NCBI GenBank assembly: GCA_945787155.1
Contig: CALZHD010000009.1
Coordinates: forward strand, 1-38,843
DNA from: an uncultured Gammaproteobacteria bacterium
GTDB lineage: Bacteria; Pseudomonadota; Gammaproteobacteria; SZUA-140
Reading direction: 5' to 3'
DNA: 38,843 nucleotides
The notes beneath the pieces were generated by a model. That model had not been told where the DNA came from, ran no database searches, and worked only from the letters and a program-made list of their open reading frames with translations. Below are positions 31,755 to 38,843 of this stretch, in pieces. Position 1 is the stretch's first letter; every line of letters starts with the position of its first letter. The translations under genes were made by a program, and so were the position numbers.

Positions 31755-32128
31755 TAATCGGTATAGGCACCGATATTGTACGTGTCTCACGTATGGCCAG
31801 GAACCTGGAGCGATATGGTGATAAGTTTGCAGCGCGTATTTTAACCTCGAGTGAGTTTGCCGAATTTTCACAGCATAAGCGCCCGGCCGGTTTTCTCGCT
31901 AAGCGTTTTGCGGCCAAAGAGGCGGCCGCCAAAGCAATGGGATGTGGTTTCAGAGATGGCCTGATGTTGACGCATATTGGTATCGGACATGATGAATTTG
32001 GTAAGCCGTTACTGGAATACCGTGATAAGGCGATTGAGGTCTGCAATAGACTGAAGGTTAGCCATAGTCATGTTTCAATCTCTGATGAAGATGAATATGC
32101 CGTTGCTTTTGTTACATTGGTCTCCTGA
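31751..32128 (+). CDS. acpS: Holo-[acyl-carrier-protein] synthase
   Basis: [52 protein letters not shown]. Confidence 0.98.
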
Positions 32129-32313
32129 AAATAATTTCTCTTCCTGCTGTTCTGCATCAATCACCTCCCCTAAGTTCTACTCCTTTTTGTGACTAAGATC
32201 TCAAATGTTTTTGTTCGATTTTTGGAATTGTATAGCTGTTCACAAAATAGATGTATTATTTGCGGTTTAATAGTTTATTCATTTATATCGTTATTATTCG
32301 ATGGAGAAAGTAG

Positions 32314-32811
32314 ATGCGTGATCGCCTGAAAGTAGTGATGTTGATCTTTGTAATGAGCTTTTCTGCTGCTGTATCAGCTTCAGGAACTGCACCTGATTTT
32401 GAGCTTGATGGACTTAAAGGAAAGGTCAAGTTATCCGAGTACAAAGGGAATGTAGTCTATCTCGACTTCTGGGCATCATGGTGCGGGCCATGTCGAAAAT
32501 CATTTCCCTGGATGAATGATTTGCAGGCACGTTTTAAGGATCAGGGATTACGGATCGTTGCGGTGAACCTGGATTCAAAGCGAGCTGATGCGGATGATTT
32601 TATTACACAGATGGCGCCGCGTTTTGATATCGCGTTCGATCCTCCAGGAAATGTCGCGGGACGTTATGATCTGCAAGGGATGCCAAGTGCTTTTTTGATA
32701 GATCGCAAAGGACAACTGCATAGTGTGCATTTAGGTTTTCGCGGCAAGGATATCGACCTGTTAGAGCATGAAATAGAGACGCTACTCAATAATGATAAAA
32801 TCAAAAATTAA
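32314..32811 (+). CDS. TlpA/ResA-like periplasmic thioredoxin
   Basis: Signal peptide MRDRLKVVMLIFVMSFSAAVSASG; VVYLDFWASWCGPCRKSFPWMNDL (WCGPC active site); cis-Pro region QGMPSAFLID. Confidence 0.93.
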   Translation: MRDRLKVVMLIFVMSFSAAVSASGTAPDFELDGLKGKVKLSEYKGNVVYLDFWASWCGPCRKSFPWMNDLQARFKDQGLRIVAVNLDSKRADADDFITQMAPRFDIAFDPPGNVAGRYDLQGMPSAFLIDRKGQLHSVHLGFRGKDIDLLEHEIETLLNNDKIKN

Positions 32812-33061
32812 TATTAAGACTTTAGTGCATTATAGCTTGTTGTTTTCTTTTCTTTTGCTGAGCGGCTGCTCCACCTTAAAAACCGGAGGGATGTTTGCCA
32901 AAGAGACGGTCGAGCCATGGCATAAAGAATTATTGGCCGAAGAGAGAATGCAACTAAATCCATATCCCCTGGAAAATAGTGCCGATCAAAAAATTTATTA
33001 CAGTCGTGAAAGTGCCAATGGCGGACAGGGTATTGGTGGCGGAGGTTGTGGGTGCAATTAA
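32792..33061 (+). CDS. Small lipoprotein, DUF4266-like, C-terminal GGGGCGCN
   Basis: Lipobox LLLSGC; body VEPWHKELLAEERMQLNP...IYYSRESANGGQGIGGGGCGCN; overlaps the thioredoxin gene by 20 bp. Confidence 0.82.
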   Translation: MIKSKINIKTLVHYSLLFSFLLLSGCSTLKTGGMFAKETVEPWHKELLAEERMQLNPYPLENSADQKIYYSRESANGGQGIGGGGCGCN

Positions 33062-34383
33062 AAGATAAGAAGTTGAAATCATACCCCTCAAAACCATCCG
33101 TTCGCAGCGCGCTAATTATGGCGACATGTACTGTATTGTCTGGCTCACTGTCACCTGCAAGCGCAGAAGAGGAGGATGACAGCACATTATCCAGAATAGA
33201 TTTGTCAACGCTCTATTATTCAGAAGAAGATCGTGTCTCTGTCAATACCACTCATGTAGTCGTAGAAAACGATCTTGGTGATGAGGAGTTTGTACGCGCC
33301 AATTTTATCTATGACACCATTACTGGCGCCTCACCTAACGGGCGAATTATCCCGGCGGATCAGGGCAGTGGTGGGAGTATTCCTTTTACCTCGGCCTCTG
33401 GTTTTACGCTTAATGTGAATGACGTAGGAAGTGCTGGGCAAAAGTGGCTGACTGAGTTTACTGATAAACGAGCTGCGATTGATCTGAGCTGGGAAAAACC
33501 GATTACACGTACGCTACGGCGTATCTTTGAAGGTAATTTTTCATCTGAAAATGACTTTACTTCATATGGTGGTGCAGCAACGATGGTATGGGATCTAAAC
33601 CAACGCAATACGACTGTTACCGGTGGGCTGTCAGTGTTAAAGGAGACCGTGAGTCCAGATAGTGGTACGCCTTTGGAGTTGGCAATCGCTAATTGCAATG
33701 ATACTGCGCCGGCATTACCCGTATGGGCAAATTGTAATATTACCAGCCCTCGATTTGGTAATGGTCATAAACGAGTATTTGATGGTGTAATTGGGGTGAC
33801 ACAGGTCATCAATAAACGCACGATTACACAGTTGAATTATAGCCATGGCGTATCTCTTGGTTATCTTACTGACCCCTATAAACTGATCAGTGTAGTAGAC
33901 AACAATCTTGATGGTGAAGAGGTGCTAATTTTATACGAAAAGCGCCCAGACAGACGTGCGCGCAATAGTCTTTACTGGAAGACAGTCAGCCAGCTTAGTC
34001 CTAAAAAAGTGGTAGATTTTTCCTATCGATATTTCTGGGATGACTGGGGCATTAAATCTCACACTATTGATTATAAATATCGTTATGATTACGCGCCAAA
34101 GAGTTACCTTCAGCCGCATATTAGATACAATACGCAATCGAGTGCTGATTTCTTTCATAACGCTATAGATGCCGCAGTGAATGAACTGCCTCGGTATGCG
34201 AGTGCTGATTATCGTCTCGATAAACTGCAAACCTATAGTATTGGGTTGAAATATGGAAAAGAGCTGGGGAAAAGTGGGGCGTTTGCTATGCGCGCTGAGT
34301 ATATCGTCCAAAACTATAATGCTGTATCGTTGCCTGACATGAAAGCGCTGGTTTATCAGGGAACGTTCTCTTTTAAATTTTAG
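33052..34383 (+). CDS. DUF3570-like exported protein (likely beta-rich/outer-membrane)
   Basis: Signal peptide ...SALIMATCTVLSGSLSPASAEEE; alternating aromatic-rich strands ending in ...GTFSFKF (C-terminal F, OMP-like); motif DTITGASPNG; context with DUF4266 and ApbE. GTG at 33052 preferred (GGAGG 6 nt upstream); track starts at TTG 33046. Confidence 0.75.
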   Translation: MQLKDKKLKSYPSKPSVRSALIMATCTVLSGSLSPASAEEEDDSTLSRIDLSTLYYSEEDRVSVNTTHVVVENDLGDEEFVRANFIYDTITGASPNGRIIPADQGSGGSIPFTSASGFTLNVNDVGSAGQKWLTEFTDKRAAIDLSWEKPITRTLRRIFEGNFSSENDFTSYGGAATMVWDLNQRNTTVTGGLSVLKETVSPDSGTPLELAIANCNDTAPALPVWANCNITSPRFGNGHKRVFDGVIGVTQVINKRTITQLNYSHGVSLGYLTDPYKLISVVDNNLDGEEVLILYEKRPDRRARNSLYWKTVSQLSPKKVVDFSYRYFWDDWGIKSHTIDYKYRYDYAPKSYLQPHIRYNTQSSADFFHNAIDAAVNELPRYASADYRLDKLQTYSIGLKYGKELGKSGAFAMRAEYIVQNYNAVSLPDMKALVYQGTFSFKF

Positions 34384-34399
34384 ATACTTGGCGGTTAAA

Positions 34400-35296
34400 A
34401 TGAAGGGGGCAGGGCCTGTAGGGCTGGAGAGGCAGAATGGCCTGTGGGTCGGGCGATTTACCGCAATGGCAAGCCCATGTGAACTATTGGTGGATACGCC
34501 AGATCGAACACTGGCGTCATCTCTTTTATCCATAGCAGAGCACGAAGCTAAACGTATAGAGCAAAAGTTCAGTCGTTATCGTGACGACAATATCATTTTC
34601 AAAATCAATAATGCCTGTGGGAAATCCGTCGCCGTCGATGAAGAGACTGCATTGCTGCTGGATTATGCAGATCAATGTTATCAGTTGAGTGGGGGACGCT
34701 TTGACATTACATCCGGAGTGTTGCGTGAGGTCTGGCGATTTGATGCTAGTGCGAATGTGCCATCATCTGATGCGGTCACGGCCTTACTATCACGGGTGGG
34801 CTGGTCCAGGGTTAAGTGGCATTCTGCTGTATTGACAATGCAACGTGGAATGGAAATTGATTTAGGAGGGGTAGGTAAAGAATATGCGGTGGATCGTACT
34901 GCATTGTTACTTAGGCCTCATATTAGCAGTGGTGTACTCATTAACTTCGGTGGTGATTTATGTGCGCTTGGCCCTCGCATAGATGGTAGTGCGTGGGAGA
35001 TTGCAATCGATGACCCGGAAAATAGCGGTAAAAACCAGCTTGGACAGGTAAGCTTGAAAACGGGAGCTGTTGCGACCAGCGGAGATGCACGGCGCTACCT
35101 GCTTAAGGACGGTGTGCGTTATGGCCATATTCTCGATCCACGAACGGGGTGGCCAATTCCATATGCGCCTCGCTCAGTCACAACTATTGCATCTACCTGC
35201 ATGGAGGCGGGCATGTTGTCGACGTTTGCAATGCTTGAAGGCGCTGGCGCAGAGGCGTTTCTCAAACAACAGGAAGTCGAATTTCTGTGTTTTTAG
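34400..35296 (+). CDS. apbE: FAD:protein FMN transferase (ApbE family)
   Basis: ASPCELLVDT, IEQKFSRYRDDNIIFKIN, GGRFDITSGVL, EIDLGGVGKEYAVDR, GVLINFGGDLCALGP, GHILDPRTGWP. ATG at 34400 preferred over the TTG at 34388. Confidence 0.93.
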   Translation: MKGAGPVGLERQNGLWVGRFTAMASPCELLVDTPDRTLASSLLSIAEHEAKRIEQKFSRYRDDNIIFKINNACGKSVAVDEETALLLDYADQCYQLSGGRFDITSGVLREVWRFDASANVPSSDAVTALLSRVGWSRVKWHSAVLTMQRGMEIDLGGVGKEYAVDRTALLLRPHISSGVLINFGGDLCALGPRIDGSAWEIAIDDPENSGKNQLGQVSLKTGAVATSGDARRYLLKDGVRYGHILDPRTGWPIPYAPRSVTTIASTCMEAGMLSTFAMLEGAGAEAFLKQQEVEFLCF

Positions 35297-35472
35297 GAAT
35301 CTCTGATTAATTCTGGGCGGAATGATATGAGATTCAAAACTGCCCAATGCAAGGCGGAAATCGCAGATAATACCCAAGGGGCACGCCGTAGCGGGCAATT
35401 ACCAAGGTTTCCAACACCGCAGTGGACAATTTTGGACTCAGAGCATCCGTTCATGAATAAATCAGAGGTTCC
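35296..35472. mobile_element. 177 bp MITE-like element with IS5-like terminal inverted repeats
   Basis: Left end GGAATCTCTGATTAATTC, right end (reverse complement) GGAACCTCTGATTTATTC (16/18 match); flanking direct repeat TTTA at 35292-35295 and 35473-35476; no coding content; right end matches the IS end at 38749. Confidence 0.8.
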
Positions 35473-35493
35473 TTTAACTTTTGGTTAAAATTG

Positions 35494-35555: not shown

Positions 35556-37010
35556 TTAGATGGCCTCATTTGGCGCATTTTCATCCAGCGGAGGGTCGTC
35601 GTTGAGGACATTACCGTTTTGGACGCCAAAGTATTTGTATACCGATGATGCGACCGAGAAAGGTTCTGCCTGATAACTATCACTAGTCGGTGAGGTGAAC
35701 TGACGATTAACACCTGAGGCACCAATGCGCATTGTTTTACCCACAATCTTGCCCAGGGTGCGCCCTGGAATTCCTTTCCCACCCAGTGTCATCAGATTCT
35801 GATTATTGCCATGGTCCCAGCCGATTGAGTTGTTCAAGTTTACATTGCGGCCAAAATCGCCATAGACATTGATAATGATATTGTCGCGATTTGTCAGGTT
35901 CATATGTTTGACAGCGACGTCAAGTGAGCTCATCAGGTCGCGCATGCGTGCTGGGTACTCTATCAGGCTTGAGTCGTGATCATCCCAGCCACCGAGGCCA
36001 CCGCTGCCCATTGAGATGAACAAACTATCAGGATTGTTGATTGCCAAGCTGACAGCCGCCTTCATGCGGTTGCCAAAATTAGTATTAGGATAGGCGATTG
36101 GCAGGGCTGTATTCGGATCGATAGGAAGACTCGCATCGATTGCCGTGGCATTAAAACTGGCGCGAATAAAGTCAGCGAGTTCTCGACGTTTGGTGAATGC
36201 TTCCCTCACTTTCAGGAATTTTTGGCGTTGTGCGGTACTGCGTGCAAGCGCATCAATCGCATCTTCGTTAGCACCAACAAGATTCGCAGGATCGGAGCCG
36301 CCTTGACCTGAAACAAAGGAGTTGTTATTGCGGTCATAAGGGTTGCGAAAGTTCTGATCAAGCGCGACATATTTGGCACCTAACGGAATATCAAGACCAG
36401 CAAGCTGGAATATTAGCGAGTCACCTTCGAAAGAAACAAAGGGCAGTATCATATCTTCAGGGGCTTTACCAAAGGCGCCGTGAGCGCTCAACACTGCCGC
36501 GAGTGTTGTTGCCATGCCCGGACTGTTTTCTGCGTCCAGATGGCCGGTGAGGTTCTGAAAAATACTGGAACGATGCGCTTTAGAATCTTCTTTTACACGA
36601 TTCAATGTACGAAAGATGGTCATATCGCCTGATGCAATCAGGCTTTCCATTATTTCACCGCCCGCGCCATTATTGCCACCACCCCAGAAATTATTGGGGG
36701 TGACAATGGTGTTGGCATCGTTGGGGTTTAAATTATCAGGGTAGGGGTTTTGCGAGTTGGCGTTAATATCTTCTATATTGGTGAGATTGCCAGCCAGTTC
36801 AGAGGGGCCGCCATAAAGAAAAATATGAATGACCTGAGGAAGTACGGCTGGTCGCACGTAATTGACTTCATTCAGGATAACGTTATTAGCGTTTCCAGTA
36901 TTCAGTGCTGCCATGCTGGGTGAAATAAGGCTACGACCGCCCAGCATAGATGCTGCAGTACAAGCACCACCAAGGATACCAAGATGTTTCAGGAATTGTC
37001 TTCTTTCCAT
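35556..37010 (-). CDS. DUF1501-like exported protein with twin-arginine signal
   Basis: MERRQFLKHLGILGGACTAASMLGGRSL (RRxFLK Tat motif); HIFLYGGPSE, GGLGGWDDHDSSL, NVYGDFGRNVNLN...GWDHGNNQNLMTLGG typical of DUF1501 proteins. Confidence 0.88.
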   Translation of the reverse strand: MERRQFLKHLGILGGACTAASMLGGRSLISPSMAALNTGNANNVILNEVNYVRPAVLPQVIHIFLYGGPSELAGNLTNIEDINANSQNPYPDNLNPNDANTIVTPNNFWGGGNNGAGGEIMESLIASGDMTIFRTLNRVKEDSKAHRSSIFQNLTGHLDAENSPGMATTLAAVLSAHGAFGKAPEDMILPFVSFEGDSLIFQLAGLDIPLGAKYVALDQNFRNPYDRNNNSFVSGQGGSDPANLVGANEDAIDALARSTAQRQKFLKVREAFTKRRELADFIRASFNATAIDASLPIDPNTALPIAYPNTNFGNRMKAAVSLAINNPDSLFISMGSGGLGGWDDHDSSLIEYPARMRDLMSSLDVAVKHMNLTNRDNIIINVYGDFGRNVNLNNSIGWDHGNNQNLMTLGGKGIPGRTLGKIVGKTMRIGASGVNRQFTSPTSDSYQAEPFSVASSVYKYFGVQNGNVLNDDPPLDENAPNEAI

Positions 37011-37025
37011 AATAATGATACCTGC

Positions 37026-38573
37026 TTAATTTACGCTGTTGTTGAAATACGTCTCGGGTAAGCGAGAAATATAATCAAATATGATCATTGTTTGTCCAGT
37101 ACGATTATCACCATAGTTTCGATTGGTAATGACATCGCTTAAAACGGTTAACTCCTGACCATTGGCTTTACGACCAACGGTGCTTAAAAAGAGGTAATGG
37201 ATAAAGTCGTTTGCATCCAGGTCTGATGCTTTTTCGATAAATCCAGGTTCCCAACCCGCATCGTTATCGTTCGTTAAGTTTGTTCTTCGATCAAGTAACA
37301 GACGTTCACGTGTCAGTTTGTGATAATAGGAAAAACTGAGAGAGTCCAGCGGTTGCTCAGCCCAGCGGCCGAGTTTGAGTGTCATTCCTGGTTGCTTCAT
37401 TTGAGCCAGGGTTGGGTTTGAAGCGCTACCAGATGGATTATTTAGATCCTGAAAGAAGCGTCTGTATGGGTGCCACTTTGTGCGGTGCGCAATGTTGAAA
37501 AAGGTCTCTTCCAGGCGTCTTGGGCGTTCACTGTTGAGCAGGTATTCGCGAGAAAAAAGAATGGCGGTAAAGATGTGCTCAAATCGTGTTGGGTTACTGT
37601 TGATGATACTTTGCACCAGTGCAGCACGTTTCGCCTGATCCATGTCAACAAAGAACTGATCGACCAGTACATTGACGACTCTGGCGACCACCTTGGGGTG
37701 GTTTGACACAGTGCGGTAAAAATCGAAGCAGGTATTGATCCACTGGCCGAGTACTTTTTGCGGCACTATGTTTTCATCGAGCGTAATGACAAGCTGGTAG
37801 TCCTGATCATCACCGGTCAGGTGCCAGTTTTGACACGCCTGTGAGGCCTTTGGTACTTCGTCATCTTTATCGAACAGGCCAAGATAGATTTCGATCATCT
37901 CACGAGTGTTGTCTTCTGGTGAGCGAAAACGACGCCAGTTTTCCTGAGAAATCATATGCTGGTAGATGATGTCACGGATGCTCATGTTTGAATTAATGCG
38001 ACTAACGAGCTTGCTATAGACTCTGTGGACATCGAAGTAATCGGCTGAGTCCATCTCGAGTGCCGGTGAAAAGAGGATGGTGTTGGCCAGAGTGTAGGCC
38101 ATCCAGTGCGAAAAGAGGTCGCGACTGACAGGAAGGTCGAACATCAACGCCAGCGGCATCTCTTGCGAATAACGTGTCGAATTGAAATCATAATTATCGT
38201 TAATCTGCTGGATGTAGTTACCCGTGTCAGGAAGTTCTTTAGTTAACTGAAGTGATGTTCGATTGATAAAATTACCGCCGCCACCAATTTTTGGAGATGC
38301 CAGTCCCTGGCTTAGGTCAAAAAATTCATCGGCAGGAACACCTTTGTAGAGCGTGCCCATCAGACGATTTGAAACGGCGTATTGCTGTTCCGCGGATAAT
38401 TGGTTGTATTCGCTAGATGTGAGTGGGGTGGCTTCACCCGTTACAACCTGGGCTCCAAAGAGTCCAGCGGTGCTCTCTGTATCTTGTCCCTGGCTCGGTG
38501 AGTCCGGTTTACATGCGGTGAGGATAACTGCTGTTAACATCACCCACACAGCTTGTTTTATCGCATCTCTCAT
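37026..38573 (-). CDS. Lipoprotein partner of the DUF1501 protein, possibly DUF1800-like
   Basis: N-terminal lipobox VILTAC; SREYLLNSERPRRLEETFFNIAHR; directly upstream of the DUF1501 gene in the same orientation. Family assignment is by context and weak resemblance. Confidence 0.5.
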   Translation of the reverse strand: MRDAIKQAVWVMLTAVILTACKPDSPSQGQDTESTAGLFGAQVVTGEATPLTSSEYNQLSAEQQYAVSNRLMGTLYKGVPADEFFDLSQGLASPKIGGGGNFINRTSLQLTKELPDTGNYIQQINDNYDFNSTRYSQEMPLALMFDLPVSRDLFSHWMAYTLANTILFSPALEMDSADYFDVHRVYSKLVSRINSNMSIRDIIYQHMISQENWRRFRSPEDNTREMIEIYLGLFDKDDEVPKASQACQNWHLTGDDQDYQLVITLDENIVPQKVLGQWINTCFDFYRTVSNHPKVVARVVNVLVDQFFVDMDQAKRAALVQSIINSNPTRFEHIFTAILFSREYLLNSERPRRLEETFFNIAHRTKWHPYRRFFQDLNNPSGSASNPTLAQMKQPGMTLKLGRWAEQPLDSLSFSYYHKLTRERLLLDRRTNLTNDNDAGWEPGFIEKASDLDANDFIHYLFLSTVGRKANGQELTVLSDVITNRNYGDNRTGQTMIIFDYISRLPETYFNNSVN

Positions 38574-38748
38574 GTTTTAGTCTCTCGAATTATTATTAAT
38601 AGTGTGCAGCGATCTACGTCACGGAAGCATTTTCACTGCATTTCACTTCATCTGGATCAATTATAGATATTCTTATATGATAAAAACTTGAGCTATTTCA
38701 CAACATGAGAAGATGTCTTATTAATACAAATAATCTGTTGTTATTTAA

Positions 38749-38843
38749 GGAACCTCTGATTTATTCATCATTTCCGTCATAATACGTTTTATCGATTTAA
38801 ACGTCGCGGAGAACAACAAGATGCGCCAGCAAACACTCGCCGA
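38749..38843 (+). mobile_element. Left end of an IS5-family insertion sequence (truncated by window end)
   Basis: TIR GGAACCTCTGATTTATTCAT shared (20 bp identical) with the MITE; followed at 38821 by ATGCGCCAGCAAACACTCGCCGA = MRQQTLA..., the typical start of IS5-group transposases (M-[KR]-QQTLA). Confidence 0.75.

Follow-up and report, generated by a model that had tools for sequence, protein, structure and literature searches.

What might a thioredoxin, a short lipoprotein, a DUF3570 protein and an ApbE flavin transferase accomplish together when their genes are packed side by side? This question is raised by a locus in the DNA of an uncultured gammaproteobacterium, within a stretch of 38,843 nucleotides that was analyzed as a whole and is called the window here. 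Open reading frames and Pfam matches agree with an earlier note on this DNA in placing the four genes on one strand (Table 1). The spacing also is as described there: the tlpA and DUF4266 genes overlap by 20 bp, the DUF4266 and DUF3570 genes overlap by 10 bp, 16 bp separate the DUF3570 gene from apbE, and a gap of 185 bp lies between acpS and tlpA (32128 to 32314). We favor the reading that the products form an outer-membrane relay that would pass electrons from thiols to a flavin, and give this mechanism as a whole a probability of about 0.5.

Table 1. Positions of genes and sequence features in the window
Feature	Coordinates	Strand	Details
TlpA-like gene	32314..32811	+	165 aa; Pfam AhpC-TSA/Redoxin, E 8e-24
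DUF4266 lipoprotein gene	32792..33061	+	89 aa; PF14086, E 5e-19
Dual-use stretch	33029..33061	+	Gly-rich/CGCN codons of DUF4266 also hold the DUF3570 Shine-Dalgarno sequence GGAGG (33041-33045) and GTG start (33052); read directly
DUF3570 gene, GTG start	33052..34383	+	443 aa; PF12094, E 6.7e-100
Flavinylation motif DTITGAS (D88 to S94)	33313..33333	+	Start of long outer loop L2 (predicted); Ser94 codon 33331-33333
ApbE gene, ATG start	34400..35296	+	298 aa; PF02424, E 6.3e-69
Perfect 16-bp inverted repeat, 6-nt loop	35494..35531		Between apbE and the convergent DUF1501 gene
DUF1501 gene	35556..37010	-	484 aa; PF07394, E 1.8e-9; Tat-type N-terminus MERRQFLKHLG
Lipoprotein gene, no known family	37026..38573	-	515 aa; beside DUF1501; all-helical model

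Membership in a recurring flavinylation cassette

The earlier note knew of no function assigned to this gene set, but clusters that combine ApbE and DUF3570 with DUF4266 and a thioredoxin-like protein have been published, including 316 that have no DsbD gene linked to them, together with a proposed role (Meheust et al. 2021, eLife, PMC8238504). The same study reports DUF3570 in 227 and DUF4266 in 221 of its DsbD-linked clusters. The window locus almost certainly belongs to this known four-gene cassette, as all four families lie together, the DUF3570 protein carries the acceptor motif, DUF4266 ends with a CXC sequence, and DsbD is not adjacent, as in the 316 clusters. There are also differences. 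The window thioredoxin matches AhpC-TSA/Redoxin whereas the published one is named as PF13899, the window DUF3570 has one flavin site whereas that of Chlorobium luteolum has two, and the window cassette faces a convergent DUF1501 gene and a gene for a 515-residue lipoprotein, unlike the clusters as described.

A search for co-occurrence of the families reveals a redox-type cassette that indeed recurs in other genomes. Among 39 related genomes, DUF4266 is encoded in 21, and DUF3570 is encoded in those 21 and in two more (Fisher p = 4e-9), which exceeds chance. All four genes lie close together at 74 of 111 DUF3570 loci, and 20 further loci have TlpA, DUF4266 and DUF3570 genes without a close apbE, with some of the loci being cut by contig ends. 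A search of plasmids for DUF3570 returned only three weak Vibrio matches.

The target of ApbE is answered in principle, because the DUF3570 protein of C. luteolum is flavinylated by its cognate ApbE at [ST]GA[ST] sites (PMC8238504). The flavinylated partner that had been predicted for ApbE is thus the DUF3570 product of the same operon, which carries a complete motif in the window. Across 68 aligned DUF3570 sequences the motif reads D-x-x-[ST]-G-[AS]-[ST] without exception: its aspartate and glycine are invariant (68/68), positions 91 and 94 are always Ser or Thr (68/68), and the alanine is either Ala or Ser. Since FMN is attached to the last motif residue (review PMC12052999), Ser94 is the expected flavin acceptor of the window protein. 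A second motif present in some relatives is missing from this protein, which has TSASG at that place, with the Ser-Gly pair being invariant. What was already known, then, is the gene set and the flavinylation of a DUF3570 homolog, and what is new here is the predicted barrel with an outer-side flavin, an ApbE subfamily that lacks an export signal, and partner genes specific to a subclade.

A predicted barrel, with its flavin probably on the outer side

The AlphaFold2 model of DUF3570, computed with 68 sequences, is a 16-stranded barrel (pLDDT 83, pTM 0.82). Its periplasmic turns span only 2-4 residues, and its long loops (residues 93-136, 201-237, 271-300 and 363-391) all lie on the side opposite from both termini. 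When the model was compared to the PDB using Foldseek, the best matches included FadL, OmpG and Occ porins, and the matches listed were nearly all outer-membrane barrels. This resemblance is one of fold only, as no PDB sequence match was found at E values up to 0.1. The window protein has an N-terminal leader peptide and ends with FKF, and 54 of the 68 aligned sequences end with F, W or Y, the aromatic residue of the beta-signal. DUF3570 leaders are mildly hydrophobic (mean best 12-residue hydropathy 1.72). With an even strand number, short periplasmic turns, long outer loops and a terminal aromatic residue, the modeled DUF3570 protein is very probably an outer-membrane beta-barrel.

The words 'barrel' and 'porin' are absent from the text of Meheust et al. 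(PMC8238504). A paper from 2024 on flavinylation modeled other ApbE substrates. Its section that names the outer membrane among the locations of flavinylated domains does not treat DUF3570 (PMC11334425), but the authors may already suspect an outer-membrane location for this family.

Conservation was mapped onto the model by using an entropy cut-off of 0.35, which was applied once and was not tuned. The most conserved positions include 17 in the outer halves of strands versus 3 in the periplasmic halves (Fisher p 0.0014), and 22 in outer loops versus none in turns. Mean entropy did not differ significantly between the outer and periplasmic strand halves (p 0.08). Outer loops are usually the variable part of porins, and their conservation in DUF3570 therefore suggests that the functional center is at the outer, loop side of the modeled barrel. 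Ser94 is predicted to be on this side, at the start of loop L2. This loop has low confidence, with a pLDDT of about 47-56 across residues 101-130, and no other part of the model is less certain.

A possible route from thiols to flavin

By its sequence, the TlpA product is a TlpA/ResA-like periplasmic thioredoxin. It has a signal peptide and the active site WASWCGPC, and its nearest solved chain is 3gl3 (E 8.8e-48), followed by ResA; matches to the ResA subfamily model and to DsbE both fall below the respective cut-offs. In a hydropathy scan, 91% of cassette TlpA proteins showed a hydrophobic segment at the N-terminus. The window DUF4266 lipoprotein consists of a lipobox (LSG-C), a mature tether of 64 residues and the C-terminal tail GGGGCGCN. 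Its relatives likewise have short mature parts (median 55 residues), and the CGC cysteines to which the earlier note drew attention are almost invariant: GGCGCN forms the C-terminus of 103 of 105 relatives, with one exception resembling a frameshift in a draft genome. Position +2 of the lipobox is S, A or T in 76 of 81 DUF4266 proteins and D in only one of 81, and by the enterobacterial Lol rule DUF4266 would therefore reside in the outer membrane.

These parts can be joined into a relay. The cassette ApbE would attach a single FMN to Ser94 at the outer, loop side of the barrel. One DsbD protein, encoded elsewhere in this genome away from the cassette, would probably recharge the thioredoxin, which in turn might reduce the C-terminal CGC pair of DUF4266; the idea that the thioredoxin services these cysteines is a plausible partnership. 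The CGC pair, carried on a glycine-rich arm that is tethered to the outer membrane, could then bring electrons to the FMN of the barrel. The flavin could hand these on to an acceptor, possibly an oxidized metal, located on the cell surface or beyond it. We infer the contact between arm and flavin, the direction of electron flow and the nature of the acceptor. For a widespread cassette, a flavin on a predicted barrel combined with a near-invariant dithiol arm turns a list of domains of unknown function into a mechanism that can be tested.

Conduits of the MtrCAB type, in which an outer-membrane barrel and redox cofactors move electrons across the outer membrane, would be similar in their mode of working, as they also pair a barrel with a redox cofactor. 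The cassette is not a member of that porin-cytochrome family: it has 16 predicted strands and would use covalent FMN and a dithiol arm instead of hemes, and no cytochrome was identified by Pfam among the four cassette genes or the convergent pair.

Electrons might alternatively leave the CGC arm via the barrel flavin for oxygen or another oxidant, such that the module would make disulfides in the manner of Erv/ALR enzymes. In Erv2, a C-terminal CXC pair shuttles electrons to the flavin domain beside it (PMC4019985), and the glycine-rich CGC arm of DUF4266 resembles this arrangement, although by analogy only, given that arm and flavin reside on separate proteins in the cassette and FMN is attached covalently by ApbE. 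No cysteine occurs in the strongly conserved barrel columns of DUF3570, and no Erv domain was matched by Pfam in any of the four proteins, whereas Erv enzymes carry a CXXC close to the flavin. Furthermore, TlpA/ResA-like proteins with a linked DsbD normally serve as reductants, and a DsbD-like gene is adjacent and divergent to the cassette in Marinomonas and Agitococcus loci. Thus, an oxidase direction is quite improbable.

Returning to the proposed relay, the probable location of ApbE adds a further element. Exported ApbE lipoproteins canonically have an N-terminal signal peptide, but a hydropathy scan of 81 cassette ApbEs and 30 others detected no segment resembling one in the cassette group. 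The mean best 12-residue N-terminal hydropathy is 0.67 for cassette ApbEs versus 2.31 for other ApbEs, 2.34 for TlpA and 2.24 for DUF4266, and values of at least 1.8 are reached by 7% of cassette ApbEs versus 87% of the others. Of the proposal that the four genes specify one extracytoplasmic redox module, the redox cassette stands, while an extracytoplasmic location is doubtful for ApbE for this reason. The cassette ApbEs also group together in the ApbE tree, and the only two rows labeled as other ApbEs that fall within this group likewise follow a DUF3570 gene. The window ApbE, whose nearest solved relative is 1vrm (TM1553), bears the subfamily marks FxAMASPCE and GKEYAVD, the latter being found in cassette ApbEs (glutamate in 100%, glycine in 94%) where others have KGYA.

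In this assembly the cassette ApbE is the only one, and it was considered whether it might serve Rnf as well, but each of nine same-genus genomes encodes two ApbEs, one full-length and the other as short as the cassette enzymes. For this reason, the missing second ApbE probably lies in a gap of the assembly, which is 94.6% complete. Two further proteins of this genome, RnfG and a PepSY-associated FMN_bind protein, probably depend on that second enzyme. We infer that DUF3570 is the dedicated substrate of the cassette ApbE and receives its flavin before export; given that the enzyme lacks an export signal, attachment to the barrel precursor probably would take place in the cytosol. A cytosolic ApbE of Klebsiella pneumoniae that flavinylates a soluble fumarate reductase (PMC12052999) is similar in having no signal peptide and one dedicated partner, whereas the cassette partner has a leader peptide and a predicted outer-membrane destination.

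Should ApbE act in the cytosol, the barrel would have to reach the outer membrane with a bulky cofactor intact. This would be surprising, and we know of no precedent for passage of an FMN-bearing chain through Sec. The more specific version of the relay, a cytochrome-free conduit whose barrel is loaded with FMN in the cytosol, exported with its cofactor and supplied with electrons on the periplasmic side by a dithiol arm that swings, is thus advanced only tentatively, as a possibility that is more doubtful than the relay itself.

Divergent loci and neighboring genes

A second, divergent type of DUF3570 still occurs with TlpA and a CGC tail. Its motif often reads S[SN]AS instead of SGAS, and its gene neighbors encode HZS-alpha-like, SH3 and TPR proteins. 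At six such loci (L021, L022, L025, L027, L028 and L030) apbE and the flavin motif had at first seemed to be missing together, but wider flanks and whole-genome searches uncovered an ApbE of the ordinary type, located 5-12 kb or more away in most genomes and directly adjacent, with a signal peptide, in one (G427). These loci therefore belong to a second lineage, which does not amount to a clean natural experiment. Either the flavin is inessential to the thiol part, or the altered motif still works; a change from Gly to Ala in the motif of another protein left about 50% flavinylation (PMC12052999). Which type of ApbE accompanies which type of barrel thus varies from one lineage to another, a caution against regarding the thiol arm and flavin attachment as bound to occur together.

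The persistence of TlpA and DUF4266 in a lineage with an altered flavin motif would also be expected if these two proteins help to fold or insert the DUF3570 barrel, with the flavin having a separate surface function. The same can be said of the apparent coupling of the DUF4266 and DUF3570 genes, which look translationally coupled on account of their 10-bp overlap and a ribosome-binding site within glycine codons. According to the ORF list, DUF3570 and ApbE could also start farther upstream, at TTG codons (33046 and 34388, respectively). For DUF3570 the GTG at 33052 is the better start, because GGAGG is found 6 nt upstream and a start reading M/VQL recurs in relatives, where it likewise overlaps the last DUF4266 codons. 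Among 105 relatives, a G-rich segment resembling a Shine-Dalgarno sequence is present near the 3' end of the DUF4266 gene in 101, and in 72 the last glycine codon of DUF4266 is GGA or GGG, which gives rise to the [A/G]TG start of DUF3570. A role as an assembly aid nevertheless is rather improbable, since a thiol chaperone would find no cysteine pair to act on among the strongly conserved barrel columns, and DsbD-linked versions of the cassette point to a supply of reducing power.

A third alternative to the relay concerns metals. The CGC pair might bind Cu(I) or another soft metal, with TlpA keeping the thiols reduced so that they can be loaded, and the flavin barrel reducing the metal or carrying it across the outer membrane. 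This is consistent with the fusion of DUF3570 to a His/Met-rich C-terminal region in three genomes (G102, G413 and G410), with a YcnI/DUF1775-like neighbor in G413 (E 1.6e-4, below the cut-off), with feoB or ccmF/dsbE genes that adjoin plasmid homologs of the fused region, and with the presence of the VIT1 iron transporter in 25 published clusters (PMC8238504). The window protein lacks a His/Met-rich extension, however, and no metal gene is recurrent beside the cassette across 80 named loci. In other lineages a sensor-kinase/regulator pair is often near the cassette, but it resembles QseBC/PmrAB and falls below the cut-offs of heavy-metal families. On balance, a metal-handling module is unlikely.

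The kinase/regulator neighbors add little regarding function, as they occur here and there on the DUF3570 tree without a clear pattern (10 changes; a number as low arose in 85 of 500 shuffles). Sensing of ferric iron by these kinases through ExxE motifs also was considered and set aside, since 21 motifs were seen versus 14 expected, and the recurrent one lies within the stretch EVEELFDAQL, which we take to be typical of QseC.

In the window, the inverted repeat between apbE and the convergent pair (Table 1) is probably a bidirectional terminator. The 515-residue lipoprotein of this pair has no Pfam match at E values up to 1, and its all-helical AlphaFold2 model (pTM 0.84) has no analog in the PDB (best E 1.5). 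Its gene accompanies that for DUF1501 next to the cassette, and homologs of it occur at 16 loci. Both genes are constant neighbors of the cassette within one DUF3570 clade (98/95), a distribution that requires a single change on the tree, and they may be part of the system in this lineage. This clade includes Ca. Manganitrophus, a member of the Nitrospirota.

The repeat downstream of apbE

The intergenic region that follows the cassette in the window holds a short repeat (see table), which has 35 full or partial matches in the source genome at 66–100% identity, the window copy included. Because of this copy number, and because the ends of the repeat are roughly inverted (tctctgattaattc and gaataaatcagaggt), it is probably a miniature transposable element.

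Features in the window
Feature	Size	Positions	Remark
Repeat	~180 bp	35297-35480	Begins directly after the apbE stop codon
Fragment of the same repeat		38744-38768	
Lipoprotein	515 aa	37026-38573	

Neighboring genes

The lipoprotein adjoins the DUF1501 gene at the same cassette in both Gammaproteobacteria and Nitrospirota. Its predicted structure is confidently all-helical; a Pfam search assigned no family, and a PDB search with the model returned no analogue. In one group of Gammaproteobacteria, putative genes for MsrP/MsrQ, a periplasmic methionine sulfoxide repair system, lie immediately upstream of the cassette (loci L048, L051, L052, L054, L055 and L056), these names having been given by eye rather than by family search.

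Variants of the cassette proteins

In three genomes (G102, G413 and G410; loci L012, L155 and L157, respectively), a C-terminal His/Met-rich region is fused to DUF3570, and G413 also carries a DUF1775-like gene (a match below the cut-off) near the cassette. These features may connect the cassette with copper or iron. In a Candidatus Manganitrophus genome (L044:7756-8196), the DUF4266 reading frame continues beyond the point where GGCGCN should close it and reads GGGGLRLQ..., as if a frameshift had occurred within the Gly codons, which could be either real or an assembly error. Divergent TlpA-DUF4266-DUF3570 trios in other genomes (L115, L117, L119 and L121) sit inside a large conserved cluster encoding an HZS-alpha/PD40 lipoprotein, an SH3 and small-barrel protein, and TPR proteins.
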